In this document: piece by piece, positions 10,821-25,849 of the stretch
Position numbering within the stretch: position 1 is the first letter of the stretch
How the letters are laid out: every line of letters starts with the position of its first letter
Source: an uncultured Lachnospiraceae bacterium
GTDB lineage: Bacteria; Bacillota; Clostridia; Lachnospirales; Lachnospiraceae
Length of the DNA stretch: 34,408 nt
Assembly (NCBI GenBank): GCA_949287925.1
Contig: CASEIR010000077.1
Coordinates: forward strand, 1-34,408
Reading direction: 5' to 3'
The notes under the pieces: model-generated
The model's database searches: none
The model's input: the letters and a program-made list of their open reading frames with translations, nothing else
What the model was told of the DNA's origin: nothing
Made by a program: the position numbers and the translations under genes

Positions 10821-10852
10821 ACTCCTCCTAAAAATAAGATTTTAGGAGGAGT
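10821..10852 (-). terminator. 13-bp hairpin: operon terminator that also masks the mpfA ribosome site
   Basis: On the minus strand a 13-base arm starting ACTCCTCC pairs perfectly with an arm ending AGGAGGAGT around a six-base loop. TATTTTTATGG follows. It lies 45 bases past the fumB stop and has a T tract, so it can terminate the fumarate operon. The 3' arm is the Shine-Dalgarno sequence of the mpfA-like gene. Confidence 0.75.
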
Positions 10853-10896: not shown

Positions 10897-11454
10897 CTAT
10901 TTTCTGGATTCCAGATACGCCTTTTTCCCATCTTCATAGAGGTTGTTGCCCTCACTGTCGATAATGACAACCAGAGGCATCTCCTCCACATAAAGCTTAC
11001 GGAGAGCTTCCGCACCCAGATCCTCATATGCGATCAGTTCCGCCTTCTTGATACATTTTGCCAGCAGAGCTCCTGCCCCGCCGATGGCTCCGAAGTATAC
11101 GCCGCTGTATTTCTTCATAGCCTCTACCACTTCCGGAAGTCTTGCGCCTTTGCCAATCATGCCTCTGGCGCCTACTGACATCATAGTGGGAGCATAGGCG
11201 TCCATACGTCCGCTGGTTGTAGGTCCGGCGCTTCCAATTACCTGTCCCGGTTTCGCCGGAGTAGGTCCCACATAATAGATGGTAGCGTCCTGCGGATCAA
11301 ATGGGAGTTTCTCCCCTTTCGCAAGTGCCTCGCACATTCGTTTGTGTCCTGCATCTCTGGATGTATAGATAGTGCCGGTAAGATATACCGTATCACCGGC
11401 ATGAAGCGTTTTCGCGATTTCTTCTGTCAAAGGTAATGTAATATGTTTTTCCAT
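10897..11454 (-). CDS. fumB: Class I fumarate hydratase, beta (C-terminal) subunit
   Basis: This is the beta subunit of the two-subunit, iron-sulfur class I fumarase, which interconverts malate and fumarate. The family core is present: GTIYTSRDAGHKRM, YYVGPTPAKPGQVIGSAGPTTSGRMD, MIGKG, and YFGAIGGAGALLAKCI. Its 185 residues are normal for a split beta subunit. The start follows the fumA stop by one base and has the full GGAGGTGATC ribosome site. As the last gene of a thirteen-gene operon containing a fumarate reductase-like pair, it probably supplies fumarate from malate. Confidence 0.93.
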   Translation of the reverse strand: MEKHITLPLTEEIAKTLHAGDTVYLTGTIYTSRDAGHKRMCEALAKGEKLPFDPQDATIYYVGPTPAKPGQVIGSAGPTTSGRMDAYAPTMMSVGARGMIGKGARLPEVVEAMKKYSGVYFGAIGGAGALLAKCIKKAELIAYEDLGAEALRKLYVEEMPLVVIIDSEGNNLYEDGKKAYLESRK

Positions 11455-11455
11455 C

Positions 11456-12298
11456 CTAGATCACCTCCGTTTTATGGCGTGTTACATGGCAATTGATATT
11501 GATGGCACATGGCATACCTGCAATGTGGGTAGGCAGGGTCTCGATATTCAGTCCGATAGCAGTGGTCTTACCGCCAAATCCCTGAGGTCCGATGCCAAGC
11601 TCGTTGATCTTTTCCAGCATTTCTTTCTCCAGATCTGCATAGAACGGATCCGGATTGGAAGAATCAACGGGGCGCATCAGCGCTTTTTTCGCCAGCAGCG
11701 CTGCCTTATCGAAAGTTCCCCCGATTCCTACACCCACTACCATCGGCGGACATGGATTCGGTCCGGCCGTCTCTACGGCTTCAATGATGAAATCCTTGAT
11801 TCCCTGCAGTCCGGCTGAAGGCTTGAACATCCGGATCTGGCTCATATTTTCACTCCCAAATCCTTTCGGCCCTACCGTAACCTTGATCTGCTCCCCGGGA
11901 ACGATCTCGGTATATAGCATAGCCGGCGTGTTATCTCCGGTATTACCTCTGCGCACCGGATCTTTTACCACTGATTTCCGCAGATATCCTTTATCATAGC
12001 CGCGGCGTACACCTTCATCCACTGCCTCCGCAAGATCTCCACCCACAATATGGACATCCTGTCCGATCTCCAGAAATACACAGGCCATACCTGTATCCTG
12101 GCAAATCGGAACATCTTCTTTCTCCGCGATTTCAAAATTCGTAATGATCTTATCCAATACTCCCTGAGCAATTTCCCAATCTTCACATGCGCGGCAATTT
12201 TTGATTGCACACTGCACATCTTCCGGAAGATACTGGTTTGCCTCGATACATAATTTTTCCACAACATCTGTAATCTGCTGTGCCTGAATTTCACGCAT
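11456..12298 (-). CDS. fumA: Class I fumarate hydratase, alpha subunit
   Basis: This is the [4Fe-4S]-binding alpha subunit of class I fumarase. Candidate cluster ligands are Cys66 in VPICQDTGMA, Cys183 in NPCPPMVVGVGIGGT and a Cys in GMPCAININCH (264 or 270). Other family blocks are RRGNTGDNTPAMLYTEIVPG and KGFGSENMS. At 280 residues it is full length for a split alpha subunit, and the partner follows immediately. AGGAGGTAAGGAG precedes the ATG. In this operon it most likely dehydrates malate to fumarate for the downstream reductase. Class I fumarases are oxygen-sensitive, fitting an anaerobe. Confidence 0.93.
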   Translation of the reverse strand: MREIQAQQITDVVEKLCIEANQYLPEDVQCAIKNCRACEDWEIAQGVLDKIITNFEIAEKEDVPICQDTGMACVFLEIGQDVHIVGGDLAEAVDEGVRRGYDKGYLRKSVVKDPVRRGNTGDNTPAMLYTEIVPGEQIKVTVGPKGFGSENMSQIRMFKPSAGLQGIKDFIIEAVETAGPNPCPPMVVGVGIGGTFDKAALLAKKALMRPVDSSNPDPFYADLEKEMLEKINELGIGPQGFGGKTTAIGLNIETLPTHIAGMPCAININCHVTRHKTEVI

Positions 12299-12316
12299 AA
12301 CTCCTTACCTCCTGAT

Positions 12317-13480
12317 TTATAAAAAGATTCCGATAAACTGGCATGCCAGCACCACCATGACAAGCGCCACCGGATAAGTAGCCGCATAGGCGGACGCTAC
12401 ATCGTCGGTTTCCGTCACACGGATCAGTGTTCCCAACGCGGGGGTACTGGTCATACCTCCGCAGATAGAGCCAAGGGAATTGAAAAGACTTAGTTTCAGC
12501 ACTTTCACTGCGAAGAGATATCCAAGCAGCATAGGGATCAGTGTGATCAGCGCTCCATATACAAATAACAGTACTCCCTGTTCTTTCAAGATCTCTACAA
12601 ATCCTGCGCCGGCCTGCACGCCTGCGCCGATCAGGAATAAAGCCAGCCCAAATTCCCGCAGACATTCCAGAACATGTTTTTCTACTTTCACGCTCAGTTT
12701 TCCAATTTTCCCAAAATGTCCCAGAATCAGTCCCGCAATCAGCGGGCCTCCGGAGGTTCCAAGAGAAAATACCGCGCCTCCCGGAAGCGGAATCGTAATC
12801 TTCGCCAGAACGATTCCCAACACAATCGCCAAGGAAAATGGGAAAAATCCCATACTGTCTGCATAAAACAGCTCTTCTTTCTTTGTCTTATGATACTCGT
12901 CTTCCTGTACATTGACTGCCGCTTCAAATTTTGCCCGTTCTGCAGCCATGTCCGTCTTCAAGATCTTGGGTACCAGCTGAACAAACAGAACAACACCGAC
13001 CACTCCAAAGGGGTATGCGATTCCATATCCGACGGAGGCTGCCGCCGACTTCGTTGCTTCCAGAGCCGCCGCCAGTCCAGGAGTACTGGTCAGAGCGCCC
13101 GCCATCATTCCCACACAAACGTCCGTAGGAACGCCGAATATAGCAATGATCCCGCTGCAGGTCAACGCGCCTGCAGCGATAATAATCACGCCTAGTAATA
13201 TATAGGATTTGGCATTCAGCTTAAAGTTCCGGAAAAACTTGGGTCCGGCAATAAACCCGACGGAGGTGACAAAACAGATCAGACCCAGTTCCCGGACCAG
13301 ATCCGGGACCTCAAATCCAAAGTGTCCGAACACCAACGCCACCAGCAGAATACCAGCCGTTCCCAGCTCAATTCCGCAAATCTTGATACTGCCCACCAGA
13401 TAGCCGATGACAGCGATCAAAAATACGATCATCAGCGTGTTGACCATCACACTGTCCCAAAACCATCTAATAATACTCAT
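12317..13480 (-). CDS. AspT/YidE/YbjL-family membrane transporter, candidate succinate/C4-dicarboxylate exporter
   Basis: The 387-residue protein has about ten hydrophobic segments in two repeated halves. Each half carries the family signature: GALTSTPGLAAALEA ... YGIAYPFGVVGVVLF (~130-165) and GGMTSTPALGTLIR ... AYAATYPVALVMVVL (~343-380). This is the aspartate:alanine exchanger/YidE fold. The usual cytoplasmic TrkA-C (RCK_C) pair between the halves is missing; only a charged ~45-residue linker is seen, so it is a compact form. Known members exchange aspartate for alanine or export succinate (SucE1 of Corynebacterium, family knowledge). Its place between the reductase and fumarase genes suggests export of succinate or dicarboxylate exchange; that substrate is inference. 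Confidence 0.85.
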   Translation of the reverse strand: MSIIRWFWDSVMVNTLMIVFLIAVIGYLVGSIKICGIELGTAGILLVALVFGHFGFEVPDLVRELGLICFVTSVGFIAGPKFFRNFKLNAKSYILLGVIIIAAGALTCSGIIAIFGVPTDVCVGMMAGALTSTPGLAAALEATKSAAASVGYGIAYPFGVVGVVLFVQLVPKILKTDMAAERAKFEAAVNVQEDEYHKTKKEELFYADSMGFFPFSLAIVLGIVLAKITIPLPGGAVFSLGTSGGPLIAGLILGHFGKIGKLSVKVEKHVLECLREFGLALFLIGAGVQAGAGFVEILKEQGVLLFVYGALITLIPMLLGYLFAVKVLKLSLFNSLGSICGGMTSTPALGTLIRVTETDDVASAYAATYPVALVMVVLACQFIGIFL

Positions 13481-13522
13481 CTTCTATTCCTTCCTTATTC
13501 TCTCACATTCCATCCGGTCTGT

Positions 13523-15124
13523 CTATCTCTCATGCCTTGCGTATTTCGGAAGCAGCAACGGAGACACATCTCCGGTATCGATTCCTGCTTCTTTCAGTTC
13601 TTCTGCATATACGGCTACATGATCCAGATTCATGGTGCCAAGTTCCACATCTTTCGCTTTTGCGGCAGCTGCTTTTCCTGCATTCCGTCCGAATACGATA
13701 ATATCCAGAAGGGAATTGCCCATCAGACGGTTTCTTCCATGAATTCCTCCAACAGCTTCTCCGGCAACCAGAAGATTATCGATTGCTTTTGTAAATCCAT
13801 CTCCTCCAATCTCCAAGCCGCCATTCTGATAATGCAAAGTAGGATATACCAGGATCGGAACTTTTCTCATATCAATATCGTAGTTCAGATACATACGAAG
13901 CATAGCAGGAATCCGTTTCTCAATCGTTCCTTCTCCGCCGATCAGTTCAATCATCGGAGTATCCAGCCATACACCGCTTCCAATCGGAGTGGTTACACCC
14001 TTTCCTCTCGCAGTACACTCGCGGATAATAGACGCTGCAGATACGTCACGTGTCTCCAGAGGATGCATGAACGCTTCTCCTTCTGCATTCACCAGCATGG
14101 CTCCCAGAGAACGTACCTTCTCCGTAACCAGCGCTCCAAAAATCTGTGAAGGATACGCCACACCTGTAGGATGATACTGGATCGTATCCTGATAGAGCAG
14201 CGACGCCCCCGCACGATATCCCAGAATCAGTCCGTCAGCAGTTGCTCCGTAATGGTTGGATGTAGGGAAATTCTGGTAATGCATCCTCCCAGCTCCGCCG
14301 GTAGCAATAATGACAGTCTTTGCTCTCGCCACCAGGTAATCATCCGTTTCCATATTCTGAAGAACAGCTCCGGCCACCTGTCCTTTTTCATCTTTGATCA
14401 GCTCCACTGCGGATGTAAATTCCACAACCGGGATCTTACGGTTCAATACTTCGTCTCTGAGAGTACGCATAATCTCTGCCCCGGAATAATCTTTGCAGGC
14501 ATGCATACGTTTTCTGGATGTTCCGCCGCCGTGGGTAGTGATCATACGCCCGGTCTCGTCTTTGTCAAACATCACGCCCAGTTTGTTCAGCCACTGGATC
14601 GCATCGGGCGCCTCCATGACCAGTCTTCTTAACAGTTCCGGCCTTGCGGCAAAGTGTCCGCCGCCGAAAGCATCCAGATAATGCTGAACCGGAGAGTCGT
14701 TTTCCTTATCCGCCGCCTGGATACCGCCTTCTGCCATCATGGTATTGGCATCACCGATCCTGAGCTTCGTCACGATCATAACATCTGCTCCTGCTTCATT
14801 TGCCTCAATAGCCGCAGAGGCTCCAGCCCCGCCGCCGCCGATTACCAGAACGTCCACATCATAGTCCACCTTATTCAGGTCTACATCTTCTGTCAGGATC
14901 CGGCTATTGGAGTGAAGAAGGTGTACCAGCTCTTCCGGCGCCTTCTGTCCTTTATTGGGTCCGATTTTAATCTCTTTAAATGCATCTTCTTTGTAATCCG
15001 GATGGAAAGCCTTCAGAAGGGTATCCTTTTCTTCTGCCGTCATACGTCTTGGCTCGTTTGCCATACGTTCTGCTCTGGTGGCTTCCACTTTCTTCACGGA
15101 TTCCATCATTTCCGGTGTAAACAT
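13523..15124 (-). CDS. FrdA/TfrA-like fumarate reductase flavoprotein subunit
   Basis: This is a soluble FAD-dependent fumarate reductase/succinate dehydrogenase-type flavoprotein of 533 residues. The FAD fingerprint VLVIGGGGAGASAAIEA starts near residue 93. Active-site blocks match FrdA: DTIQYHPTGV, TEKVRSLGAMLVN, LETRDVSAASIIREC, LHYQNGGLEI and GEAVGGIHGRNRLMGNSLLDIIVFGR, with the expected His and Arg residues. Two oddities stand out. About 88 residues precede the FAD domain, and the flavin-linking His of membrane FrdA is replaced by Asn127 (GDANTMMAEGG). Non-covalent FAD, as in thiol:fumarate reductase TfrA, is therefore predicted. An upstream ATG (15130) abuts the ribosome site; the ATG at 15124 is spaced seven bases from AGGAGG and is preferred. 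No membrane anchor gene is present. Confidence 0.88.
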   Translation of the reverse strand: MFTPEMMESVKKVEATRAERMANEPRRMTAEEKDTLLKAFHPDYKEDAFKEIKIGPNKGQKAPEELVHLLHSNSRILTEDVDLNKVDYDVDVLVIGGGGAGASAAIEANEAGADVMIVTKLRIGDANTMMAEGGIQAADKENDSPVQHYLDAFGGGHFAARPELLRRLVMEAPDAIQWLNKLGVMFDKDETGRMITTHGGGTSRKRMHACKDYSGAEIMRTLRDEVLNRKIPVVEFTSAVELIKDEKGQVAGAVLQNMETDDYLVARAKTVIIATGGAGRMHYQNFPTSNHYGATADGLILGYRAGASLLYQDTIQYHPTGVAYPSQIFGALVTEKVRSLGAMLVNAEGEAFMHPLETRDVSAASIIRECTARGKGVTTPIGSGVWLDTPMIELIGGEGTIEKRIPAMLRMYLNYDIDMRKVPILVYPTLHYQNGGLEIGGDGFTKAIDNLLVAGEAVGGIHGRNRLMGNSLLDIIVFGRNAGKAAAAKAKDVELGTMNLDHVAVYAEELKEAGIDTGDVSPLLLPKYARHER

Positions 15125-15135
15125 GATCATCCCTC

Positions 15136-15810
15136 CTATTTCTCGATCTCTCTAGAATTATAAAGCTCCTGCATCTCTTCAATGGGCTTTTCCATGATCT
15201 GCTCGATCAGATCATCGTATGCGCCGCTGTGGATCTCTTCCACACGGTTTTTCAGATGCTCGGTTTCCGGTGCAATATACTTGCCTGTCAGTCTTCTTGC
15301 CAGCAGGCCAACCATCGGATGAGAGATGCCGGCAGGACATCTTACGGAACAACATCCGCAGCCTACGCAGTCAAAAGATTCTTCCGCACATTTTTCGAAG
15401 TCTCCTCTCTGTGCATAAGCGATATACTGCATAACGTTCAGGTCCTGGGTACAGGCTTTGGTACAGGCATTACATCCGATACAGCTGTAGATCTCCGGAT
15501 AGAGTTCCATCATAACTCTCTGTTCCGGACGGATCTCTTCGATATCATAAGTTCTTTTATCTGTGGGAAAGAACGGAATACTTGCCACATACATTCCTTC
15601 TTCCACCTGTGTCTGACAAGCCAGACATGTTTTCAGTTCGTTCTTTCCTTTAATTCTATAAATGGTTGCGCACGCTCCGCAGAATCCATGCCGGCATCCG
15701 CATCCTCTTTTTAATGTATACCCTGCATATTCCATGGCAGTCATGATCGTAAGATCAGCGGGCACACTGTATTTCTTTCCGAAAAAATATACATTTACCA
15801 TATTTTCCAT
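15136..15810 (-). CDS. FrdB-like iron-sulfur subunit with 2Fe-2S and two 4Fe-4S motifs
   Basis: The 224-residue protein starts with a plant-ferredoxin-like [2Fe-2S] domain as in FrdB/SdhB (Cys37/39, Cys44, Cys47 and Cys62 in GCGCRHGFCGAC ... KTCLAC). Two CxxCxxCxxxC motifs follow (Cys110-120, CIGCNACTKAC; Cys148-158, CVGCGCCSVRC). Classical FrdB carries one [4Fe-4S] and one [3Fe-4S]; here both C-terminal motifs look like full [4Fe-4S] sites, closer to HdrC or the N-terminal half of TfrB. It should pass electrons to the adjacent flavoprotein. The start at 15810 is set by an AAGGAAG ribosome site 17 bases after the flxA stop; longer readings upstream have no such site. The electron donor is inferred to be the HdrBC or Flx proteins. 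Confidence 0.87.
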   Translation of the reverse strand: MENMVNVYFFGKKYSVPADLTIMTAMEYAGYTLKRGCGCRHGFCGACATIYRIKGKNELKTCLACQTQVEEGMYVASIPFFPTDKRTYDIEEIRPEQRVMMELYPEIYSCIGCNACTKACTQDLNVMQYIAYAQRGDFEKCAEESFDCVGCGCCSVRCPAGISHPMVGLLARRLTGKYIAPETEHLKNRVEEIHSGAYDDLIEQIMEKPIEEMQELYNSREIEK

Positions 15811-15826
15811 GAGATTACTTCCTTTC

Positions 15827-16681
15827 CTAGTATTCATTCGGCATCTCATCGATCTCGTCGCACCGAAATACCGGACCGTCTTTACATACATACTTTGATC
15901 CGATGTTGCATCTTCCACATTTGCCGACTCCGCACTTCATACGAAGTTCCAGAGTGGTGTATACCTGATCCTTCGAAAATCCCAGTTCTTCCAAGCCGGC
16001 CAGAACGAATTTGATCATGATCGGCGGTCCGCAGACCAGAGCAGTCTTGTTCACATCGAAACCAAGTTCTTTCACATAGTTCGGCACGAATCCCACATGG
16101 CCGTCCCAGCCTTCCTGTTCACGGTCGATCGTAAGATATACATTCACGCCCTCTGTTTTCATCCACACTTCCTGGATCTCTTTGAGCTGCACCAGATCAT
16201 CCGCGGAGCGGGATCCGTAAACAATATCTACCGTTCCGTAATTCTCACGGTTATCCAGTACATAGTTGATCACGGAACGCAGCGGAGCAAGACCGATACC
16301 ACCTGCAATAAACAGCAGGTTCTTTCCTTTCAGTTCATCCTCTACCGGGAAATGATTACCATAAGGTCCACGGACGGTGATTTCATCCCCGACTTCCAGA
16401 CTGTGGAGATAATCGGTCAGCATCCCACATTTCTTAATGCTGAACTCCTGATATTCTTTATTCGTAGGCGAAGAAGTAATGGAAAACATACCTTCGCTGA
16501 TTCCGGGCGCACACAGCATTGCACACTGTCCCGGCATATGTTCAAACAGTTTTCCGCCTTCCGGAGCATTCACACGGAAGGTTTTTACGTCCGGCGTCTC
16601 TTCCCGGATATCGGTAATAATTCCCACCTGGGGAATCAAAGTGTCCAGTTTATAATTCTTGTGGCAGGTACATTCGCTCAT
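15827..16681 (-). CDS. flxA: FlxA-like FAD/NAD(P)H-binding subunit with 2Fe-2S
   Basis: The protein belongs to the PyrK/HydG/AsrB ferredoxin-reductase-like family. It has an FAD-binding beta barrel (MFSITSSP, ~65-72), an NAD(P)-binding domain (AGGIGLAPLRS, 126-136; VCGPP, 217-220) and a C-terminal PyrK-type [2Fe-2S] site (Cys250, 255, 258, 266). In the FlxABCD-HdrABC complexes of sulfate reducers FlxA is the NADH-oxidising entry point. At 284 residues the length fits. Its ATG overlaps the flxB stop by one base. The gene name rests on family plus context (flxB, flxC, flxD and hdrABC adjacent). The anaerobic sulfite reductase AsrB is the main alternative, but no asrC is present. Confidence 0.87.
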   Translation of the reverse strand: MSECTCHKNYKLDTLIPQVGIITDIREETPDVKTFRVNAPEGGKLFEHMPGQCAMLCAPGISEGMFSITSSPTNKEYQEFSIKKCGMLTDYLHSLEVGDEITVRGPYGNHFPVEDELKGKNLLFIAGGIGLAPLRSVINYVLDNRENYGTVDIVYGSRSADDLVQLKEIQEVWMKTEGVNVYLTIDREQEGWDGHVGFVPNYVKELGFDVNKTALVCGPPIMIKFVLAGLEELGFSKDQVYTTLELRMKCGVGKCGRCNIGSKYVCKDGPVFRCDEIDEMPNEY

Positions 16682-17718
16682 TACTGCTCACCTCCCTGTT
16701 TCTGAAATGCTTTCACTACCTTTACAATATTCAGCGCTGACGGACATTTTTCCACGCATCTTCCACATCCCACACAGGAATACATTCCGTCATTGTTGGC
16801 TGGGAAATATACCAGTTTATGCATAAATCTCTGACGGAAACGTTCTTTCTGGGAATTACGGTTATTACCGTGAGCCATCATGGTAAAATCGGAATACATA
16901 CACGAATCCCAGCAGCGGTAACGTTTTACCCCATGTCCCGTGTCATAATCCTTGATATCGTAACACTGGCAAGTCGGACATACAAAGGTGCAGGTACCGC
17001 ACGCCAGACATGGTTTATACAATTCTTCCCAGACTGGAGAATCGAATTTTTCCATAAGTACATCCCCGTTCCATCCTTCCAGTGAAAGATTTGAATAGGG
17101 AAGTTTTTCAATAATTCCACGAATCTTGCCCTTTTCTTCTTCTACTTTCGCATCCGCATCATCGTCTGGAATCAACAGATCTGCAACCTTAGCAGTCAGT
17201 GTCTCCCCTTTTTCCGTAAGCGGTTTCCAGCAAAGGTCTCCTTCGATCATCCATACAGCCACGTCTGCCGCCGGATCAGCCGCATCCACTCCAAACACCT
17301 TGCAAAAACAGGTTTCTTCCGGCTCATGGCAGGCCATAGCAACGATGATTCCATGCTCCCTTCTGGCAGCATAAAAAGTATCTATGGGATCTGCCAGGAA
17401 CACTTTGTCCAGCACCTCTATTCCCTTGATATCACAGGCTTTCATGCCAAAAACCACAAAATCCTGTTCTTTCAGGCATTCCGGTTCGATACTGATCTTC
17501 TTCCCATCTTTCACACAGGTATACAAGTTCTCGCTCTGAGGGAAGAAAACGTCTTTTGGAGATTTTACGCTTTTCAATGTATCAAGATCTACCTCTGCGT
17601 CTTCACTCCAAACGCCGAAATTCACTTGTCCGGCAGTCTTCACCGGCAGGTATAATTCCTGTTCTGCGGCAATCTTCTGAAATAATGCCGTCAGATTTTC
17701 TTTTGCTATCTTGTACAT
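16681..17718 (-). CDS. flxB: FlxB-like (AsrA/HyhB family) 4Fe-4S subunit
   Basis: This 345-residue protein has the AsrA/HyhB-type architecture. An N-terminal domain is followed by two [4Fe-4S] motifs, Cys237-247 (CLACGTCTFVC) and Cys315-325 (CVGCGRCVEKC). The family block RCWDSCMYSDFTMM ... ERFRQRFMHKL (~268-301) lies between them. Proteins of this kind relay electrons between the FAD/NAD subunit and further iron-sulfur partners in sulfhydrogenases, sulfite reductases and Flx complexes. It overlaps flxA by one base and follows flxC by three. In this operon it is read as the FlxB relay. It is soluble, with no signal peptide or membrane segment. Confidence 0.85.
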   Translation of the reverse strand: MYKIAKENLTALFQKIAAEQELYLPVKTAGQVNFGVWSEDAEVDLDTLKSVKSPKDVFFPQSENLYTCVKDGKKISIEPECLKEQDFVVFGMKACDIKGIEVLDKVFLADPIDTFYAARREHGIIVAMACHEPEETCFCKVFGVDAADPAADVAVWMIEGDLCWKPLTEKGETLTAKVADLLIPDDDADAKVEEEKGKIRGIIEKLPYSNLSLEGWNGDVLMEKFDSPVWEELYKPCLACGTCTFVCPTCQCYDIKDYDTGHGVKRYRCWDSCMYSDFTMMAHGNNRNSQKERFRQRFMHKLVYFPANNDGMYSCVGCGRCVEKCPSALNIVKVVKAFQKQGGEQ

Positions 17719-17721
17719 ACA

Positions 17722-18696
17722 TTATCTCCTTTCTGCCACGATTCCAGGCTCAACATCTTCGAATACATAACTGGTGAGAGGCCCTCTTTCTTCCATATCT
17801 GCTCCCGCCTGATATTCTCCGTAGAATTCATTGATATCTTTGATAAACTTGCGGTTGAACAGATGAAGCGGAATCCCCTGCGGACAGACTCTGCTGCACT
17901 CACCGCAGTCCGTACATCTTCCGGCCACATGGAAGGCACGGATAATATGGAACATTTTCTCTTCAAAAGAATCCACATTCGCCTTCTGTGCACTGTCAAA
18001 TTTTGTACTGTCGAAGACACATTTCCGGCAGCTGCAGGCCGGACATACGTTACGGCAGGCGTTGCAGCGGATACATTTGCTTAATTCCTTCTGGAAATAC
18101 GCGAACTTTTCCTCCGGACTCATGGCCTCGATCTTTTCAACCTCTGTAAACCGGTCGGCATCCTTCGTCTCTTTGGATTCGCCGATCAGCTCGTCATAGA
18201 TCATATGCTCCTTGCCTTTACATACATGGCATCTCTCCAACATAGCGTCCCCATAAGCACAGGTCTTCTCTCCATAAATAGTCTGGATCGCAAGCGTATC
18301 TGCTTCCTCTTCGATCTCTGCGCCGGATATGCTCTGAATTCCCTTGATTCCCATGGCACGGATCTTCTCAATATCCAGCTTACCTTTGCATCCCACACCG
18401 ATGATATAAGCTTTCTCCCTGTCTACACGGTGTTCTTTCATCAGCTGTTGGAAACTGTAGGTATCACAGGGTTTCAGACAAACCAGTGTTTTCCCTTCCA
18501 GTTTGGAAGCCTCAATCATATATTTACTCAGATTTGCTCCGCAGAAACCGTTATATACAAAATCTGCAAAGTCTTCTTCTTTCTCAAAATAAGCCGGCTC
18601 CGGATTGTAAGGCAGGTCTCCGGCTTTCCATCCAAGCACTCTGGCTACACTGCCGTCTGCCAGAAGCTCTTTCGCTCGGTTGATTAATTCCTGCAT
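17722..18696 (-). CDS. flxC: FlxC-like 4Fe-4S subunit
   Basis: The 324-residue protein has an FdhB/FrhB-like N-terminal part (VYNGFCGANLSKYM, LVCLKPCDTY, IIGVGC, ERCHVCKGKEH). Two C-terminal [4Fe-4S] motifs follow: Cys208-218 (CIRCNACRNVC, then further Cys in PACSCRKC) and Cys261-271 (CTDCGECSRVC). It fits FlxC, the third subunit of the NADH-oxidising Flx module. Its ATG lies inside the end of flxD (13-base overlap), with GGAGG in the flxD coding sequence as ribosome site, implying translational coupling. The distinction between FlxB and FlxC rests on the AsrA-like block being in the neighbour, so the letters could be debated. Confidence 0.82.
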   Translation of the reverse strand: MQELINRAKELLADGSVARVLGWKAGDLPYNPEPAYFEKEEDFADFVYNGFCGANLSKYMIEASKLEGKTLVCLKPCDTYSFQQLMKEHRVDREKAYIIGVGCKGKLDIEKIRAMGIKGIQSISGAEIEEEADTLAIQTIYGEKTCAYGDAMLERCHVCKGKEHMIYDELIGESKETKDADRFTEVEKIEAMSPEEKFAYFQKELSKCIRCNACRNVCPACSCRKCVFDSTKFDSAQKANVDSFEEKMFHIIRAFHVAGRCTDCGECSRVCPQGIPLHLFNRKFIKDINEFYGEYQAGADMEERGPLTSYVFEDVEPGIVAERR

Positions 18697-19127
18697 CTTA
18701 AATCCTCCAATCTTACATTCTTTCCGAGGGAGCGGATCTTATCTACAAACTCATGCATGGTCTGTGAAAATTTCACACCCTCTGCCGCGGATACCCATTC
18801 TACACGGGTACGTCCATTTTCCACTCCGATATAATCCAACATAGAGAATAAAAGGGTCATTCTCCTTCTGGCATAAAAGTTACCGGACGTATAATGACAG
18901 TCTCCCGGATGGCATCCGCACATGATTACACCGTCAGCGCCTTTTTCAAAAGCCCGGAGAATAAACATGGGATTTACACGGCAGGAACAGGGAACACGGA
19001 TGATCTTTACATCTGCCGGATAGGACAGACGGCTGCTTCCCGCCAGGTCAGCGCCCGCATAACTACACCAGTTACAGCAGAACGCCACAATCTTTGGTCT
19101 GAATTCTTCTTTTGCTTCTATCGACAT
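18684..19127 (-). CDS. flxD: MvhD/FlxD-like 2Fe-2S electron-transfer subunit
   Basis: This is a 147-residue MvhD-family protein (hydrogenase iron-sulfur subunit/FlxD). In methanogens MvhD binds a [2Fe-2S] cluster and docks the electron-input module onto HdrA. Family features are FCCNWCSYAGADLAG (Cys17, 18, 21), RVPCSCRVNPMFILRAFEKGADGVIMCGCHPGDCHY (~45-79, five Cys) and SGNFYARRR. The ATG at 19127 overlaps the last ten bases of hdrA and has GGAGGT nine bases upstream. No hydrogenase catalytic subunits (MvhA/G) are present, so its partner is the Flx NADH module, as in FlxABCD-HdrABC. Confidence 0.9.
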   Translation of the reverse strand: MSIEAKEEFRPKIVAFCCNWCSYAGADLAGSSRLSYPADVKIIRVPCSCRVNPMFILRAFEKGADGVIMCGCHPGDCHYTSGNFYARRRMTLLFSMLDYIGVENGRTRVEWVSAAEGVKFSQTMHEFVDKIRSLGKNVRLEDLRCRN

Positions 19128-21106
19128 ATCGCATCCACCTCCGCTAGAATCTGTCTGTTCGAGAATCCCTGCAGGTCCATAGCTCCGGACGGACATGTTA
19201 CGGTACATGCTCCGCAGCCCTGGCACAATGCGTCATTGACAACCGCAATGCGTCTGGTCTCCCGGATTCCGTGATCATTCACTTCCTTCTCTTCATAGCT
19301 GATTGCTCCATAAGGACATACGTTTGCACACTGGGAACATCCATTACACAGAAGCTCATCTGAGTGAGCGGTACATGGATTGGTCATCAGCTTATCTTTC
19401 GCCAGCAGTCCGATTGCCTTAACCGCTGCAGCTCCCGCCTGGGATACGGTTTCTGGAATATCTTTCGGTCCCTGGCAGACACCAGACAGAAAGATTCCTG
19501 CCGTAGGCGATTCTACAGGACGAAGTTTTGCATGTGCTTCTGTCAGGAAGTTATTGGTATCGATACTTGCCGTCAGCATGGTTGCAATCTCTCTGACATC
19601 CGGATTCGGTTCGATAGCTGCCGCAAGGACTACCATATCCGCTTCCTTCAGGATCTGTTTGTTATCCAGAAGATCTGCTCCCTGCACCAGAAGCTTTCCA
19701 TCCGGCTGGGGAATGACCTTTCCTACCTGTCCTTTGATATAGTTAACGCCATATTCTTCTACAGCTCTACGATAAAATTCATCAAAATTCTTACCTGGTG
19801 TACGCACATCAATATAGAACACTGTCACATTCACATCCGGATACTTATCCCGGATCAGCATGGCATGTTTTGCCGTATACATACAGCAGATCTTGGAACA
19901 ATAACTCTTTCCTCTATTGTCTGCGCAGCGGCTTCCCACACACTGGATGAATACAATTTCCTTCGGAGCTTTTCCGTCAGACAGACGCTCCAGATGTCCT
20001 TTGGTTGGTCCAGCCGCGTTCATGACACGTTCCAGTTCCAAAGATGTAATTACATCCTTGCTCTGGCTATAGGCATATTCATCATAGTTATCCAGTTTGA
20101 TCATATCAAAGCCGGTGGCTACTACAATAGCGCCGTATTTTTCTGTAATAATCTCATCTTTCTGTTCATAGTCTATGGCCCCTGCCTGACAGACTTTAGA
20201 ACAAATTCCACATTTTCCCGTCTTAAACTTGATGCAAGCTTCCCGGTCAATCACTGGAACATTCGGAATCGCCTGGGCAAACGGCGTGTAGATGGCGCTT
20301 CTGTTATTCAGTCCCCGGTTAAATTCACTTGGAGTTTTTTTGCTGGGACATTTTTCCTGACAGACTCCGCATCCGGTACATTTGGACATATCCACGCTTC
20401 TTGCCTTTTTACGGATATCTACGGTAAAGTCACCTACAAAACCGGATACTTTTTCTACTTCACTATATGTATAAATGGTAATATTTTCGTGGGCGCTCGC
20501 CTCCACCATCTTCGGGGTCAGGATACATGCGGAACAGTCCAATGTGGGGAAGGTCTTGTCCAGCTGGGACATTCTTCCTCCGATACTTGGAGTCTTCTCC
20601 ACGATATCCACAGGATATCCGGCATCAGCAATATCCAGTGCCGTCTGGATTCCTGCAATACCGCCTCCGATTACCAGAGCACGTTTGGTAACGCGGCTCT
20701 CTCCCGGTTTCAGCGGCGTGTTCAGATTTACTTTGGCAACGGCTGCACGCATCAGGATTACGGCCTTCTTCGTTGCCTCCTCTATATCTTTATGAATCCA
20801 GGAACAATGCTCCCGGATATTTGCGATCTCGACCATATACGGATTCAGTCCGGCGCGGTCTGCCGCATTACGGAATGTAGTTTCATGCATCCGCGGCGAA
20901 CAGGAACATACGACGATTCCTGTCAGTTTCTTTTCCTGAATGGCAGTACGGATCTTTTCCTGTCCTGCTTCGGAACACATATACTGGTAATCTTCCGCAT
21001 GGACTACTCCAGGCTCCTTCAATGCCATCTCTGCTACTTTCTTCACGTCTACCGTTGCGGCAATATTACTTCCGCAATGACAGACAAATACTCCGATCCT
21101 CTGCAC
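19118..21106 (-). CDS. hdrA: HdrA-like flavin-bifurcating heterodisulfide reductase subunit
   Basis: This 662-residue protein has the complete HdrA layout. The N-terminal domain carries CHCGSN and CSCSPRMHE motifs (~9-75). The thioredoxin-reductase-like FAD domain has GGGIAG at 147-152 and GGRMSQLDKTFPTLDCSACILTPKM. An inserted ferredoxin (~243-306, CTGCGVCQEKC and CGICSKVC) is followed by a C-terminal ferredoxin with CNGCSQCANVC and CQGCGACTVTC. In characterised complexes the HdrA FAD splits electron pairs, sending one to ferredoxin and one to HdrBC. Translation begins with GTG, eight bases after AGGAGGT. It is coupled to flxD by overlap. That it bifurcates here is inferred from the intact architecture and the Flx context. 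Confidence 0.93.
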   Translation of the reverse strand: MQRIGVFVCHCGSNIAATVDVKKVAEMALKEPGVVHAEDYQYMCSEAGQEKIRTAIQEKKLTGIVVCSCSPRMHETTFRNAADRAGLNPYMVEIANIREHCSWIHKDIEEATKKAVILMRAAVAKVNLNTPLKPGESRVTKRALVIGGGIAGIQTALDIADAGYPVDIVEKTPSIGGRMSQLDKTFPTLDCSACILTPKMVEASAHENITIYTYSEVEKVSGFVGDFTVDIRKKARSVDMSKCTGCGVCQEKCPSKKTPSEFNRGLNNRSAIYTPFAQAIPNVPVIDREACIKFKTGKCGICSKVCQAGAIDYEQKDEIITEKYGAIVVATGFDMIKLDNYDEYAYSQSKDVITSLELERVMNAAGPTKGHLERLSDGKAPKEIVFIQCVGSRCADNRGKSYCSKICCMYTAKHAMLIRDKYPDVNVTVFYIDVRTPGKNFDEFYRRAVEEYGVNYIKGQVGKVIPQPDGKLLVQGADLLDNKQILKEADMVVLAAAIEPNPDVREIATMLTASIDTNNFLTEAHAKLRPVESPTAGIFLSGVCQGPKDIPETVSQAGAAAVKAIGLLAKDKLMTNPCTAHSDELLCNGCSQCANVCPYGAISYEEKEVNDHGIRETRRIAVVNDALCQGCGACTVTCPSGAMDLQGFSNRQILAEVDAICR

Positions 21107-21112
21107 CTTCTA

Positions 21113-21502
21113 TCACCTCCTGTACCTTCTGAATGCGCTGACCAGCAACTGCTGCGGTGTTTCCGGATCCAGCAGTTCCGGAATCTCGTCGGGAGTCAGA
21201 TAATCCTGTCCCTTTTCACGAATCACGATCTGCCTTGCAGCGTCAATCAGTTTACCCGGTTTTACATCACGGGGACATCTCTCCACGCAGGCAAAACAGG
21301 AAAGGCATTTCCACAATGACTTAGACTGTACCAGCGATTCGATGTCTTCGTTAATAACATAAGACACAAACTGATGTGGTTTAATATCCATTTCATTATA
21401 AGACGGACAGGATGCGGAGCATTTTCCACACTTCATACACTTCAGGGGATTGACGCCGCTGATCTCTTTGATCAGTTCCGCCTGTTTTTTCTTTGTCGTC
21501 AC
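21113..21502 (-). CDS. hdrC: HdrC-like 4Fe-4S subunit
   Basis: This 129-residue small ferredoxin-like protein has two complete [4Fe-4S] motifs, Cys22-32 (CMKCGKCSASC) and Cys66-76 (CLSCFACVERC). Both match HdrC, which relays electrons from HdrA to HdrB. The start is GTG, overlapping the hdrB stop as GTGA, with GGAG in the hdrB tail. It lies six bases before hdrA. Confidence 0.9.
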   Translation of the reverse strand: MTTKKKQAELIKEISGVNPLKCMKCGKCSASCPSYNEMDIKPHQFVSYVINEDIESLVQSKSLWKCLSCFACVERCPRDVKPGKLIDAARQIVIREKGQDYLTPDEIPELLDPETPQQLLVSAFRRYRR

Positions 21503-22296
21503 TGCTCCTTCACCTCACCTTTCACACCGAGCGCCTCTGCCAGTAATTCTGTAAAATAATAAACCGGCAGGTTCTCATTATTATTTTTATTCAGATTATA
21601 CATGCACAGCGGACAGGCTGTAATCAGCATATCTGCACCGAATCCCTGAGCGCTGTTCTCGATCTTCTTACACATCTCGTTTGCCATATCTGGTTCTTTC
21701 AAAGAGATATATCCGCCGCAGCACTCATTCCGATACGGATAAATCACTGGTTCCGCACCAATGGCACGGATGAAGTCTTCCATAACCTTCGGATTCTCCG
21801 GATTATCGAATGCCAGGATCTTACCAGGACGAAGCAAAAGGCATCCGTAATATGCGCCGATCTTCTTCCCCGTCAGCGGATTTGTTACTTTTTCTTTTAG
21901 CACATCAAAACCAATCCTGTCCCGCAGCACCTCCAGAAAATGCAGCACCTTTGTTTCTCCGGCATAAGGTTCTTCCAGCCCCATATAATTATTGGCTCTG
22001 GTCCGGATATCTTCCACATTCTTCATATCGTCATTCACTCGTTTCAGCACATGATGACAAGCAGAACATAAAGTAACCAAGTCCTGTCCCTTTTCTTTTG
22101 CGTCGTTTAACGCACGAACGGAAGAGAGCTTGGTGGCTATCTCGTCGCTTCCCAGTGGATATACACCGCCGCAGCACTGCCACTCACTGATCTCTTCCAG
22201 TTCAAATCCCAATGCTTTGGCAGAAGCTCTGGCGTAAGCATCCAGATCTTCTGCCTTATTTTTCAAGGTACAGCCGGGATAATAACTGTATTTCAT
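21499..22296 (-). CDS. hdrB: HdrB-like subunit with two CCG iron-sulfur sites
   Basis: The 265-residue protein has two complete CCG domains: Cys9, Cys41-42, Cys77/80 and Cys152, Cys192-193, Cys228/231. In crystal structures of methanogen HdrB this arrangement binds two noncubane [4Fe-4S] clusters that reduce the CoM-CoB heterodisulfide. No coenzyme M/B or DsrC genes are in view, so the acceptor here is unknown. With an FrdAB-like pair in the same operon, HdrB may deliver electrons to fumarate reduction, much as the HdrB-like half of TfrB connects to TfrA. AAGGAGGG precedes the ATG. Family assignment is firm; the acceptor is inference. Confidence 0.92.
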   Translation of the reverse strand: MKYSYYPGCTLKNKAEDLDAYARASAKALGFELEEISEWQCCGGVYPLGSDEIATKLSSVRALNDAKEKGQDLVTLCSACHHVLKRVNDDMKNVEDIRTRANNYMGLEEPYAGETKVLHFLEVLRDRIGFDVLKEKVTNPLTGKKIGAYYGCLLLRPGKILAFDNPENPKVMEDFIRAIGAEPVIYPYRNECCGGYISLKEPDMANEMCKKIENSAQGFGADMLITACPLCMYNLNKNNNENLPVYYFTELLAEALGVKGEVKEQ

Positions 22297-22326
22297 AGTT
22301 CTCCCTCCTTGTCTGTCTCCATAATC

Positions 22327-23274
22327 TTAAATATCTAACTGAGCGATCACTGACTTCAGTACATCTGCGCTTGCTTTCAGCTTGGCAACCTCTTCATCCG
22401 TCAGACGCATCGGAATCTTGCCCTGCACACCATGAGGGCCTACCAAAGTCAACGTACTCAGACACACATCTTCAATTCCGTACTCTCCATGCATCATAGA
22501 GGAGACCGTTGCAACCGAATCAGAAGCCGCAAGCACCATGTTACACAGATAAACCACCGCAATCGAAATCGCATAGAAGGTAGCACCCTTCTTGGCAATG
22601 ACCTGCCCGCCGGATTTATGCACATGCTCTTCCATCGCAGCTTTATCCAATTCTTCAATCTCAATACCGTTTGCCTTCATCGTCTCATAATAATCATCAA
22701 TATTTACAGTAGAAATATCTGCTCCGGACCATGGAACAAAGGAGGAATCACCATGCTCGCCGTACACGTACGCATGAATATTTTTCTGCGCCACATGGAA
22801 ATGTTCCGATAATCCCTGGCGAAGCCTTGCCGTATCCAGGATTGTACCGGAACCGATGATCTGGTTTTCTGGAAGTCCTGAAATCTTGGTAAACACATAG
22901 GTCAATACGTCAACCGGATTGCTGACGATAATATATAAAGCATTTGGCGCTGCTTTTACAATCTCTGGAGTAATTTCTTTGATAATATTCACGTTTGTCT
23001 GTGTAAGTTCAATTCTGGTCTGTCCAGGCTTACGCGCGATTCCGGAAGTGATGATGACAATATCCGATCCAACTGCATCTTCATAATCTCCGGCAATGAT
23101 GGAAATTGGATTGCGGAAACAGGTACCCTGTTTGATATCCATCACTTCTCCTTCTACCTTTTCCTTGTTGATGTCAATAAGTACAATCTCAGAAGCAAAA
23201 TCTTCACCGGATAATTTGTATGCGATTGTAGCTCCGACACTTCCTGCGCCGATAATAGTGATCTTACTGCTCAT
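22327..23274 (-). CDS. LDH-family dehydrogenase with malate-specific arginine (predicted malate dehydrogenase)
   Basis: The 315-residue NAD-dependent enzyme is of the lactate/malate dehydrogenase fold. It has GAGSVGATIAY (9-19), Asp34 for NAD, Asp147/Arg150 and catalytic His174 in YGEHGDSS. Overall it resembles bacterial L-lactate dehydrogenase (GSGTILDTARLR, KKGATFYAIS). The specificity loop, however, reads GIARKPGQTR: Arg81 sits where LDH has Gln102. Q102R is the classic change that turns LDH into an oxaloacetate reductase. Thr232 (LDH Thr246) is kept. As first gene of an operon with fumarase and fumarate reductase-like genes, it is read as malate dehydrogenase; automated pipelines would probably call it ldh. 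AAAGGAAAGG precedes the ATG. Confidence 0.85.
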   Translation of the reverse strand: MSSKITIIGAGSVGATIAYKLSGEDFASEIVLIDINKEKVEGEVMDIKQGTCFRNPISIIAGDYEDAVGSDIVIITSGIARKPGQTRIELTQTNVNIIKEITPEIVKAAPNALYIIVSNPVDVLTYVFTKISGLPENQIIGSGTILDTARLRQGLSEHFHVAQKNIHAYVYGEHGDSSFVPWSGADISTVNIDDYYETMKANGIEIEELDKAAMEEHVHKSGGQVIAKKGATFYAISIAVVYLCNMVLAASDSVATVSSMMHGEYGIEDVCLSTLTLVGPHGVQGKIPMRLTDEEVAKLKASADVLKSVIAQLDI

Positions 23275-24214: not shown

Positions 24215-24628
24215 CTATGCCTCTTCTTTCATCCGCTGTAGCGTTCCCGCCGGATGATGAGGCGGCGCATAGATGGAGGATACCTTCAGCGGACCGCATC
24301 CGTTGTTGATGATATTATGCCAGATACCGGCCGGCACAAACATTCCGTCACCCCGGCATAGTTTCTTCTGATAATCTAGCCGGTTCTGACATTTTCCCAT
24401 CTTGACCACTGCAGTTCCCTGTTCGATCCGGATAAACTGGTCTGTATCCGGATGGATCTCTTCTCCAATGTCCCTACACGGTGGAACGCACATTACCGTC
24501 ATCTGCAGATAACAACCGGTCCAGACAGCTTTTCGAAAGTATGCATTGCCGGCGGCCGCCTTTTCCACAGAAAACGCACAAGCCTCCGGTCCTCTGTCCT
24601 CTGAATTTACAAAATGACAATCATTCAT
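24215..24628 (-). CDS. Single-domain cupin protein
   Basis: This 137-residue protein folds as one cupin beta barrel. The first cupin motif spans GEEIHPDTDQFIRIEQGTAVVKMG (His59 region, with Glu in place of some usual ligands). The second is GDGMFVPAGIWHNIINNG with the metal-binding His. Such stand-alone cupins bind a metal and small ligands; many are annotated only as cupin-domain proteins, and the substrate cannot be read from sequence. Eight cysteines in 137 residues is unusually many. AGAGGG precedes the ATG. It is divergent from the lipoprotein gene and is followed by a terminator, so it is monocistronic. Confidence 0.85.
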   Translation of the reverse strand: MNDCHFVNSEDRGPEACAFSVEKAAAGNAYFRKAVWTGCYLQMTVMCVPPCRDIGEEIHPDTDQFIRIEQGTAVVKMGKCQNRLDYQKKLCRGDGMFVPAGIWHNIINNGCGPLKVSSIYAPPHHPAGTLQRMKEEA

Positions 24629-24698
24629 GACAACAATCCCTCTTTTTTATTATATATATGCCACATTTTCTTTCCTGTTCATCTGCCGGGACTGCATA

Positions 24699-24727
24699 TG
24701 GCAATACTTTCCGGTTTCTGCTATAAT
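24699..24727 (+). promoter_or_regulatory. Extended -10 promoter of the lipoprotein gene
   Basis: A perfect TATAAT preceded by TGC (extended -10) lies 17 bases after a weak -35, TGGCAA. It is 27 bases before the ATG at 24755. Confidence 0.7.
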
Positions 24728-24754
24728 AACAAAAAAATTAATGACGGGGGAAAC

Positions 24755-25849
24755 ATGAAAAAAAGATATAACTGCTCTGTGATTCTACTATTTCTGATCT
24801 GCATCCTTTTTATGACCGGATGTACTACGAATTATACAAAAGAAGATATTGAAAAATATGTACGGCAGAATGTTGGCCTCCATGATTTTACCGTATCAGA
24901 CGAGTATCGTATCCGGACAGATGATGATGGATACGATGACAGGATCTGGGCGGCAAAAGACAATCACACCGGCATGACATTTCATATTATCGACAATTAT
25001 TACTGGTCTGCCGAATGGATGGCTAACCGGCTGGAAGACGACTATGATTCTGCCTTCCTGTATTTTATCAAAAAGGATCTGCCGGAAACGCCCGCCCTGA
25101 GCATCGATCTGGACATAGAAGACGGCATTTATTCCGCCGGTATCTCCGGCAGCTTCACCGATGAAAATGGCTTAAAAGAACTCTGGAAAGACCTTCTGCA
25201 GCTGCAGCTTTACTTCCGCAAAATCCAGCAGCCGGATCTGTCTGTCCGTTACCAGTTTCAATACCTTCATCCTGTACGGAACGCGACAAGCCATGAATGG
25301 ACCCAGGGTGACACCTGGGGATGGACAGATGAAATGGCCGATTATTCCGAAATGCTGAACAGTTACATACAGATGGCAATGGAATACCGCTACCCCGGTA
25401 CCTATGAAAACCTGCCAGCAGACCAGTTAGAACACGCACTGAAAGATTACGAATTCAGAGTCCGCATCCAAAGAGCCGACGGATCCATCGAATGCTACGA
25501 TAATATCATCGCTAACCCCTTCTATTACGGAATCAGTTATGGAGCACTGTACGAGATCCTGCTGCAGGAAGGCTTCGCCCCGGAAGGGAACCCGGGCCAT
25601 TACTCCTTTACCGGTATGGACGGATGCAGTTATGAGATTTCCTATGATTATACAGATTATCCCTACCCCCAGACAGACGGCACAGTCCAGTACGGGTATT
25701 ACTATCTGAAAGACGGGGAACAAACTCCCATGGACTTTTATTTTTATCATCATTTTGAAACCGACGAAATCAAGGACATGACCGGCCTCCAGCTGTATGA
25801 CAACGCAATCACAGAACCGGCGGCCGAACAATCCGTGGAAACGGAATAA
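24755..25849 (+). CDS. Predicted lipoprotein of unknown function
   Basis: The 364-residue protein begins with a lipoprotein signal: MKKR, a hydrophobic stretch and the lipobox LFMTGC, giving lipidated Cys23. The mature part is acidic and rich in Tyr, Trp and Asp (for example DDDGYDDRIW, NYYWSAEWM, YDYTDYPYPQ). No family was recognised, so only surface attachment is claimed. The start at 24755 follows ACGGGGGAAAC; a longer reading from 24614 would bury the signal and cover the promoter. Its last 41 bases overlap the end of the convergent GNAT gene, and no terminator is seen between them. Confidence 0.85.
   Translation: MKKRYNCSVILLFLICILFMTGCTTNYTKEDIEKYVRQNVGLHDFTVSDEYRIRTDDDGYDDRIWAAKDNHTGMTFHIIDNYYWSAEWMANRLEDDYDSAFLYFIKKDLPETPALSIDLDIEDGIYSAGISGSFTDENGLKELWKDLLQLQLYFRKIQQPDLSVRYQFQYLHPVRNATSHEWTQGDTWGWTDEMADYSEMLNSYIQMAMEYRYPGTYENLPADQLEHALKDYEFRVRIQRADGSIECYDNIIANPFYYGISYGALYEILLQEGFAPEGNPGHYSFTGMDGCSYEISYDYTDYPYPQTDGTVQYGYYYLKDGEQTPMDFYFYHHFETDEIKDMTGLQLYDNAITEPAAEQSVETE

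Follow-up and report, generated by a model that had tools for sequence, protein, structure and literature searches.

We analysed a stretch of 34,408 nt from an uncultured Lachnospiraceae bacterium (contig CASEIR010000077.1, assembly GCA_949287925.1; hereafter the window), which is the whole contig of genome G000, an assembly that is 83.6% complete with 6.4% contamination. The window contains a thirteen-gene operon, running on the minus strand from 23274 to 10897, in which a malate dehydrogenase, the seven subunits of a FlxABCD-HdrABC module, the fumarate reductase-like proteins FrdB and FrdA, a candidate succinate exporter and a class I fumarase are encoded one after the other. We consider it probable, from the sequence and its comparison with relatives, that this is a soluble, quinone-free fumarate reductase which has its own substrate supply and is coupled by electron bifurcation, and, as a part of that reading, highly likely that Flx-Hdr feeds FrdBA. 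What appears to be new here is that FrdA is accompanied by an HdrB/HdrC subtype of its own, even where the genes lie far apart.

Proteins of the operon and their linkage

The seven Flx and Hdr subunits all belong to the right families and lie in one cluster. HdrA can be aligned over its whole length with its Methanothermococcus counterpart (5odc_A, E 3e-205), and it carries the FAD domain, the inserted and C-terminal ferredoxin domains, the cluster ligands and the lysine of that protein; precisely, C389, C403, C407, C408 and K413 of the window align with C386, C399, C403, C404 and K409 of 5odc_A, the last of which we take to lie near the flavin. In HdrB, all ten cluster cysteines are invariant across the 25 rows of the alignment that represent the subtype found with FrdA (Frd-type). 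Many HdrA genes of other Flx-Hdr clusters in our sample of 398 genomes of the phylum contain one in-frame TGA each, probably for selenocysteine; none was shown in the window HdrA or in the HdrA matches of its family.

The FrdA residues H320, E337, R361, H433 and R468 are identical in 132 of 132 distinct family sequences and T336 is kept in 131, the single exception being a Thr to Ser change; we assume these positions to be the catalytic His/Thr-Glu/Arg/His/Arg set of fumarate reductases. All 132 have Asn in place of the covalent FAD-binding histidine of E. coli FrdA. Without this histidine E. coli FrdA still reduces fumarate and no longer oxidises succinate. The best NCBIfam match of the window FrdA is TfrA, at 327 bits and hence far below the 718-bit cut-off. 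Two 4Fe-4S motifs of four Cys each are present in all 125 distinct FrdB sequences, and the family has Cys at the third-cluster position, where E. coli FrdB has Val, and no 3Fe-4S motif. The Pfam search found no CCG domain in FrdB, and no membrane anchor or cytochrome b encoded in the operon; among the displayed ORFs (open reading frames) of the FrdA-family and Flx-Hdr loci, hdrB and frdB are separate genes, with no HdrB-FrdB fusion. A conserved N-terminal extension (about residues 1-88) marks the whole FrdA family; sequence matches to FrdA, SdhA and NadB structures stop short of it, and no solved structure was matched by sequence over the first 80 to 90 residues.

The first gene scores above the NCBIfam cut-off as an L-lactate dehydrogenase. 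Despite this label a malate dehydrogenase is favoured, because an Arg in the substrate loop, which we assume to distinguish malate dehydrogenases within this family, is present in the window protein and in 49 examined ORFs of related loci (47 identified through the KPG motif and the other two read by eye, with duplicates kept in the count). The transporter gives a strong PF06826 match, and only 168 bits against the 547-bit cut-off of the AspT equivalog; its family, AAEx, includes SucE1 of C. glutamicum (PMC9527358; here as below, statements on cited papers refer to the parts of each source that were available to us). The first-pass annotation had proposed that Flx-Hdr feeds a soluble fumarate reductase for which neither a cytochrome b nor a quinone anchor is encoded, and that the operon also supplies the fumarate; both proposals are supported by sequence and comparison.

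As close relatives we considered the best 80 relatives of FrdA among the matches listed, which are 80-92% identical and come from Lachnospiraceae and other Clostridia. The nine genes hdrBCA-flxDCBA-frdBA were found by tblastn, all in this order, in 59 of the 80; a contig end truncates the block in the remaining 21 (two of these show frdA alone and are hence uninformative), so that the arrangement is not due to chance. With contig ends included, fumA was found in 69 of the 80, a relative of the exporter in 48 and mdh (>50% identity) in 42. Among 298 genomes of the window's family, FrdA is present in 34 and HdrA of at least 69% identity in the same 34, with four further genomes having HdrA at 55-56% and no FrdA. 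Outside the family HdrA was dropped as a marker, as HdrA of 60-62% also occurs in FrdA-free genomes, whereas HdrB and HdrC do discriminate. Misbinning of the contig was considered, since FrdA was not found in 16 phylum-sample genomes of the window's family, order or class, and it is unlikely because a genome of the same genus, 99% complete, has the same operon (locus L149).

Within the 398 phylum genomes FrdA was found at 40 places in 39 genomes, all at or above 686 bits, with a sharp boundary to the next match at 284. We viewed the surroundings of 38 of these places (the window itself, 25 viewed across a maximum of 20 kb and 12 across at most 4.6 kb; G067 and G089 are not among them), confirming neighbour families for representatives and assigning the others by ORF pattern or size. 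A separation of the frd and hdr-flx parts in relatives, which the first-pass annotation had named as an observation that would speak against a joint complex, occurs in none of the 80 close relatives and is seen in several of these distant genomes; seven to nine of the latter nevertheless encode the dedicated HdrB subtype at another place in the genome. In particular, frdBA lies far from any hdr gene in seven genomes (G319, G169, G010, G337, G193, G217 and G085), and Flx-Hdr is encoded elsewhere in them, in the order hdrB-hdrC-hdrA-flxDCBA and with a short HdrC of 131-143 amino acids (aa). The 15 FrdA-free loci compared have the order hdrC-hdrB-hdrA and a long HdrC (189-227 aa); Frd-type HdrC proteins linked to FrdA are mostly 126-167 aa long, with one ORF of 208. 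For G085, with 1.5 Mb between the genes, the two trees (FrdA and HdrB) give the same placement, beside G048, G005 and G052.

In the HdrB tree a branch with support 100/99 and length 1.01 separates 42 Frd-type rows from 24 others (15 FrdA-free loci, eight second clusters of FrdA genomes and L129), although the bootstrap had not fully settled; L153 and, from a set of 34 loci, L204, L222, L230 and L234 are omitted for want of a usable hdrB ORF. Because the FrdA-free loci had been picked from the top HdrA matches, we also ran an open search over the 398 genomes with an HdrB profile built from the 25 Frd-type rows, scoring up to six candidates per genome. Twenty-seven genomes reached at least 355 bits, followed by G257 at 300 and by all others at 280 or less. 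All 27 have FrdA, including the 11 that had been left out of the profile, and none of the 359 FrdA-free genomes exceeded 280.2 bits. Frd-type HdrB and FrdA lie on different contigs or far apart in nine genomes, a separation that contig ends may explain in G252 and G333. In G231, G331, G273 and G040, frdBA is linked to Frd-type HdrB; the HdrA-Flx cluster found in these genomes occupies another place and comes with a separate HdrB/HdrC pair of the other subtype, a pattern to be expected of a dedicated adaptor.

The two HdrB subtypes have different residues beside the cluster cysteines; the Frd-type has T10, V83, H119 and Y196, and V83 is replaced by Arg in 96% of the 24 other-subtype rows. A regular expression for the cysteines failed on six of the 95 Frd-type rows and on one of the 26 others; three of the six are short 4.6 kb loci (L092, L103 and L106), and L205, L207 and L211 carry all ten aligned cysteines, so that only the spacing differs. 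A likeness of Frd-type HdrB to SdhE of methylmenaquinol:fumarate reductase was rejected, the NCBIfam scores not separating the subtypes (seven Frd-type proteins and eight others).

Around frdBA, dicarboxylate enzymes recur while the electron donor varies. Together with Flx-Hdr, frdBA occurs in two further gene orders, one in G048, G005 and G052 and the other in G236; an aspartase adjoins the genes in G048, as does an ORF of similar size in G005. It stands with HdrB-HdrC alone in G231, G331 and G273 (G040 was viewed over 4.6 kb), and in G113 and G045 with HdrB, HdrA, a double-length HdrA and FlxC, to which FlxD is added in G113; short flanks and the position of HdrB indicate that others of that family probably have this type of cluster, and G257 has a related one. 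Malic enzyme and fumarase lie beside frdBA in G370 and G010, and the ORF pattern suggests the same for G169, G337, G193 and G119; pyruvate carboxylase does so in G345 and, judged from the size of the ORF, also in G270 (G067 belongs to the same genus). G036 and G347 have NrfH-like cytochromes as neighbours, with scores under the family cut-off, and G030 has an HdrC-cytochrome b561 fusion there, with a similar ORF in G075. In a FrdA tree of 66 chosen family members, linkage to Flx-Hdr appears in three separate parts with three gene orders, and requires three changes on well-supported branches, whether gains or losses.

At L115 (12531-17900), L116 and L129, two HdrA-like proteins accompany frdBA, of which one has double length and, in L115, a pyridine nucleotide-disulfide oxidoreductase domain; FlxA and FlxB were not seen, and such a cluster is a possible second HdrA-based donor for FrdBA. 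NrfH-like cytochromes c adjoin frdBA at L120 (6713-8015) and L132 (11834-12253), which suggests a quinol-linked variant of the same fumarate reductase.

Proposed electron path and its alternatives

From the genes, their families and residues, the linkage and the co-occurrence, we infer an electron path with its donor and stoichiometry. FlxA would take a hydride from NADH, and FlxB, FlxC and FlxD would pass the electrons to the FAD of HdrA, from which one electron would go down to ferredoxin (Fd) and one up, through HdrC, HdrB, FrdB and FrdA, to fumarate; overall, 2 NADH + Fd(ox) + fumarate would give 2 NAD + Fd(red) + succinate. The dedicated HdrB/HdrC subtype would be the adaptor between HdrA and FrdB, so that HdrB, FrdB and FrdA together would take the role of TfrA and the fused TfrB in methanogens, with HdrA instead of thiols as the source of electrons. 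Malate dehydrogenase and fumarase would make the fumarate, the AAEx transporter may export the succinate, and Rnf would convert reduced ferredoxin into an ion gradient. In genome G000, rnfCDGEAB is present and no gene of the UbiA family was found (14 of 14 control genomes were positive). Calculated from standard potentials, NADH and fumarate alone give -68 kJ/mol; with bifurcation and Fd at -420 mV, about -49 kJ/mol remain, or -18 in a harsh case, the comparison with crotonyl-CoA being -40.5.

A cultured member is Blautia luti, whose strain MSK.16.34 (L080) has hdrBCA-flxDCBA-frdBA-fumAB, with no mdh beside the block; this block holds its only strong FrdA match, the others reaching at most 75 bits. 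Trischler and Muller (2026, PMC12773636), working with their own strain, report 0.42 succinate per glucose, fumarate:methyl viologen reductase activity of 504-989 mU/mg and malate dehydrogenase activity of about 1070 mU/mg in extracts, and a high frdAB transcript level. The theoretical pathway in the same paper uses an NADH-dependent fumarate reductase without energy coupling, and its main text, in the part available, has no words starting with 'hdr' or 'heterodisulfide'.

Several points weigh against the bifurcating, FrdA-dedicated reading. Homology of HdrA is by itself no proof of bifurcation, a caution expressed for Etf, Hdr and Nuo homologues (PMC5861303), and our literature search brought up no member for which dependence on ferredoxin or NADH had been assayed. 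Reduction of a disulfide is still conceivable for HdrB, whose two cluster sites are complete. The four families from which the 11 held-out genomes come also contributed rows to the profile, hence these genomes are not independent lineages, and the p-values ignore kinship; the genome searches, moreover, were limited to the top few candidates of each genome (3-6). Twelve of the 39 FrdA genomes have no Frd-type HdrB of 355 bits: in four, cytochrome-type proteins adjoin frdBA, G257 has the 300-bit HdrB in its cluster and G370 is cut by a contig end, while G345, G270, G067, G233, G063 and G119 lack a top-scoring HdrB without explanation. Finally, the absence of UbiA is weakened by the incompleteness of G000.

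The same electron path might exist in a soluble NADH:fumarate reductase without bifurcation, in which HdrA merely conducts and the energy is lost as heat. Such an enzyme has little use for a many-cluster HdrA, superfluous in a plain NADH enzyme, nor would it account for the end-to-end conservation with the bifurcating methanogen protein, including the cluster ligands and the lysine presumably near the flavin; nevertheless, the free energy of NADH oxidation by fumarate shows that coupling is not needed, and the 2026 pathway for B. luti has just such an NADH-dependent reductase (PMC12773636), so we hold this explanation to be unlikely and still deserving of real weight. A further reading makes a diffusible disulfide or small thiol carrier the acceptor of Flx-Hdr, with FrdBA fed otherwise and the genes only co-regulated. 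Both CCG cluster sites are indeed kept in HdrB, and Flx-Hdr loci without FrdA are common in the phylum sample. The HdrB/HdrC that accompany FrdA are, however, a subtype apart from that of FrdA-free genomes, FrdB has no thiol-oxidising CCG domain, and in the four cytochrome-bearing FrdA genomes without Frd-type HdrB it is other electron carriers that adjoin frdBA, all of which makes this reading improbable.

The identity of FrdA itself may also be questioned, as it is 32% identical to E. coli FrdA and equally 32% to NadB, so that an aspartate oxidase or another enoate reductase has to be considered. The position of Glu121 of E. coli NadB, to which we attribute a functional role in aspartate oxidase, is occupied by His in the window protein and in 149 of the 152 family rows, the remaining three having Phe (2) or Lys (1), and the full fumarate site is present; the genomic context of fumarase, malic enzyme and aspartase and the fumarate reductase activity in extracts of B. 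luti (PMC12773636), whose other FrdA matches are weak, point the same way, and we give an oxidase or other enoate reductase very little chance. Operation in reverse, with succinate oxidised and ferredoxin re-oxidised, has in its favour that redox complexes can in general be reversible, but it conflicts with the loss of the FAD histidine throughout the family, a loss that in the E. coli enzyme abolishes succinate oxidation. It conflicts as well with the production of succinate by B. luti (PMC12773636), and is the least credible of these explanations.

Features of the operon and of the rest of the window

The thirteen ORFs, the named families of which were matched by Pfam and NCBIfam, form a real operon (Table 1), and the first-pass observation of one strand, overlaps and no internal terminator was borne out. 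The mechanically called starts were too early for flxD, whose true start is most likely 19127, and for frdB, for which a matching Met stands at or near the FrdB start in most of the 60 relatives listed. With the starts corrected, the gaps between consecutive genes are 30, -4, 6, -10, -13, 3, -1, 16, 5, 42, 18 and 1 bases, that is, from -13 to 42. No minus-strand terminator-like site occurs at the internal junctions, those inside the operon falling within genes; on both strands 20 such sites were observed against 11.6 expected.

Table 1. Positions of the operon genes and of the adjoining hairpin in the window
Feature	Position	Strand	Basis or remark
Malate dehydrogenase (mdh), LDH-like type	22327..23274	-	Ldh_1_N/Ldh_1_C; substrate-loop Arg in 'SGIARKPGQTR'
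hdrB, Frd-associated subtype	21499..22296	-	two CCG domains, all ten cluster cysteines
hdrC, short Frd-associated subtype, 129 aa	21113..21502	-	two 4Fe-4S motifs
hdrA, candidate bifurcating subunit, FAD and several 4Fe-4S clusters	19118..21106	-	alignment to 5odc_A
flxD (MvhD family)	18684..19127	-	PF02662; start corrected from 19226
flxC, iron-sulfur subunit	17722..18696	-	Pfam/NCBIfam
flxB, iron-sulfur subunit, sulfhydrogenase beta / AsrA-like	16681..17718	-	Pfam/NCBIfam
flxA, FAD/NAD(P)H-binding input subunit with Fe-S binding domain	15827..16681	-	PF00175, PF00970, PF10418
frdB-like, one 2Fe-2S and two 4Fe-4S motifs	15136..15810	-	start corrected from 15918
frdA-like flavoprotein, TfrA-like	13523..15130	-	N-terminal extension of about 88 residues
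AAEx-family transporter, candidate succinate exporter	12317..13480	-	PF06826
Class I fumarase alpha subunit (fumA)	11456..12298	-	PF05681; NF004885 above cut-off
Class I fumarase beta subunit (fumB)	10897..11454	-	PF05683; NF005310 above cut-off
Hairpin, 13 pairs, just 3' of fumB	10821..10852	-	possible operon-end terminator

The next gene upstream of mdh lies 189 bases away, and a promoter-like site before mdh, at 23340-23312, is plausible; promoter-like sites in the region (25 found, 24.4 expected) show no excess over chance. The 3' arm of the hairpin behind fumB holds a Shine-Dalgarno-like AGGAGG, directly before the likely start of a CNNM/CorC-type gene, so that the hairpin may regulate this gene rather than only end the operon. 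The Rfam search of the window gave no match. A 411-aa ORF without Pfam match lies on the plus strand at 24614-25849, divergent from the neighbouring cupin gene.

Relation to known systems and significance

FlxABCD-HdrABC of Desulfovibrio was reportedly described by Ramos in 2015, and DsrC is said to be its proposed acceptor in sulfate reducers. The window shares with the Desulfovibrio system all seven subunits and the NADH input, and differs in encoding FrdBA alongside and in an HdrB/HdrC subtype unlike that of the FrdA-free Flx-Hdr loci of its own phylum. With TfrAB of methanogens it has in common the best match of FrdA, to TfrA, and the same domain kinds in HdrB, FrdB and FrdA taken together, but its CCG part is a separate protein and the proposed donor is not CoM-SH/CoB-SH. 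Active-site residues are common to the window FrdA and E. coli FrdABCD, whereas membrane anchor, 3Fe-4S motif and FAD histidine are missing from the window operon, and no UbiA-family gene was found in the genome.

The basic idea of a Flx-Hdr-Frd assembly is not new. A preprint (10.20944/preprints201912.0288.v1), cited in the work on Pseudoclostridium thermosuccinogenes, reportedly advanced the same hypothesis. The 'succinate operon' of that species, as published, comprises fumarase, Flx-Hdr, fumarate reductase and a putative transporter, with ferredoxin coupling proposed; a loss of succinate under H2 was read as fitting this coupling, while sulfide had the opposite, confusing effect (PMC7282089). 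By this description the four parts are shared with the window, where mdh comes first and fumarase last, and the available part of the paper makes no mention of a dedicated HdrB/HdrC subtype. In tubeworm symbionts and Thioflavicoccus, tfrAB is interspersed with flxABCD-hdrABC and the products may form a complex (PMC6315080); the likeness is a proposed complex delivering electrons to a Tfr-type fumarate reductase, and the difference is that those organisms fix carbon by the reductive tricarboxylic acid cycle, with korABCD inside the cluster too and no fermentative succinate pathway. The first-pass claim that fumarate is on the high-potential branch is supported in part, as regards the components and their coupling, and was already in print as a hypothesis (PMC7282089, PMC6315080). 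MvhADG-HdrABC has been shown to bifurcate and MetFV-HdrABC-MvhD has been proposed to do so (PMC5861303); these too are HdrA-based with input and output modules swapped, the output in the window being fumarate. A FrdA screen of rumen genomes, as far as its text was available, says nothing of a link to Hdr (PMC6776011), and in the open-access literature, to which our search extended and from which subscription papers are excluded, we found no biochemical proof of a Flx-Hdr-Frd assembly. The occurrence among gut Lachnospiraceae, the connection with B. luti, the donor swap around FrdBA and the dedicated HdrB/HdrC, as they appear from our comparisons, were absent from the parts of the literature available to us.

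We are inclined, with only modest confidence, to regard FrdBA as a plug-in with its own HdrB/HdrC adaptor on varied HdrA-Flx units, by which quinone-free gut Lachnospiraceae, including B. luti, would conserve energy by bifurcation. If this is true, published ATP balances for such fermentations would be too low by about 0.56 ATP per succinate, which in B. luti would mean about 0.23 ATP more per glucose, as calculated from the published stoichiometries (PMC12773636) with 2 H+ per 2 electrons at Rnf and 3.6 H+ per ATP. Energy would then be conserved at fumarate reduction without quinone or cytochrome, in a fumarate-reducing counterpart of Bcd/Etf. The dedicated HdrB/HdrC would serve as a genome marker for Flx-Hdr complexes that feed fumarate and would bear on the question of the Hdr acceptor, and with B. 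luti the proposed mechanism becomes testable in culture.

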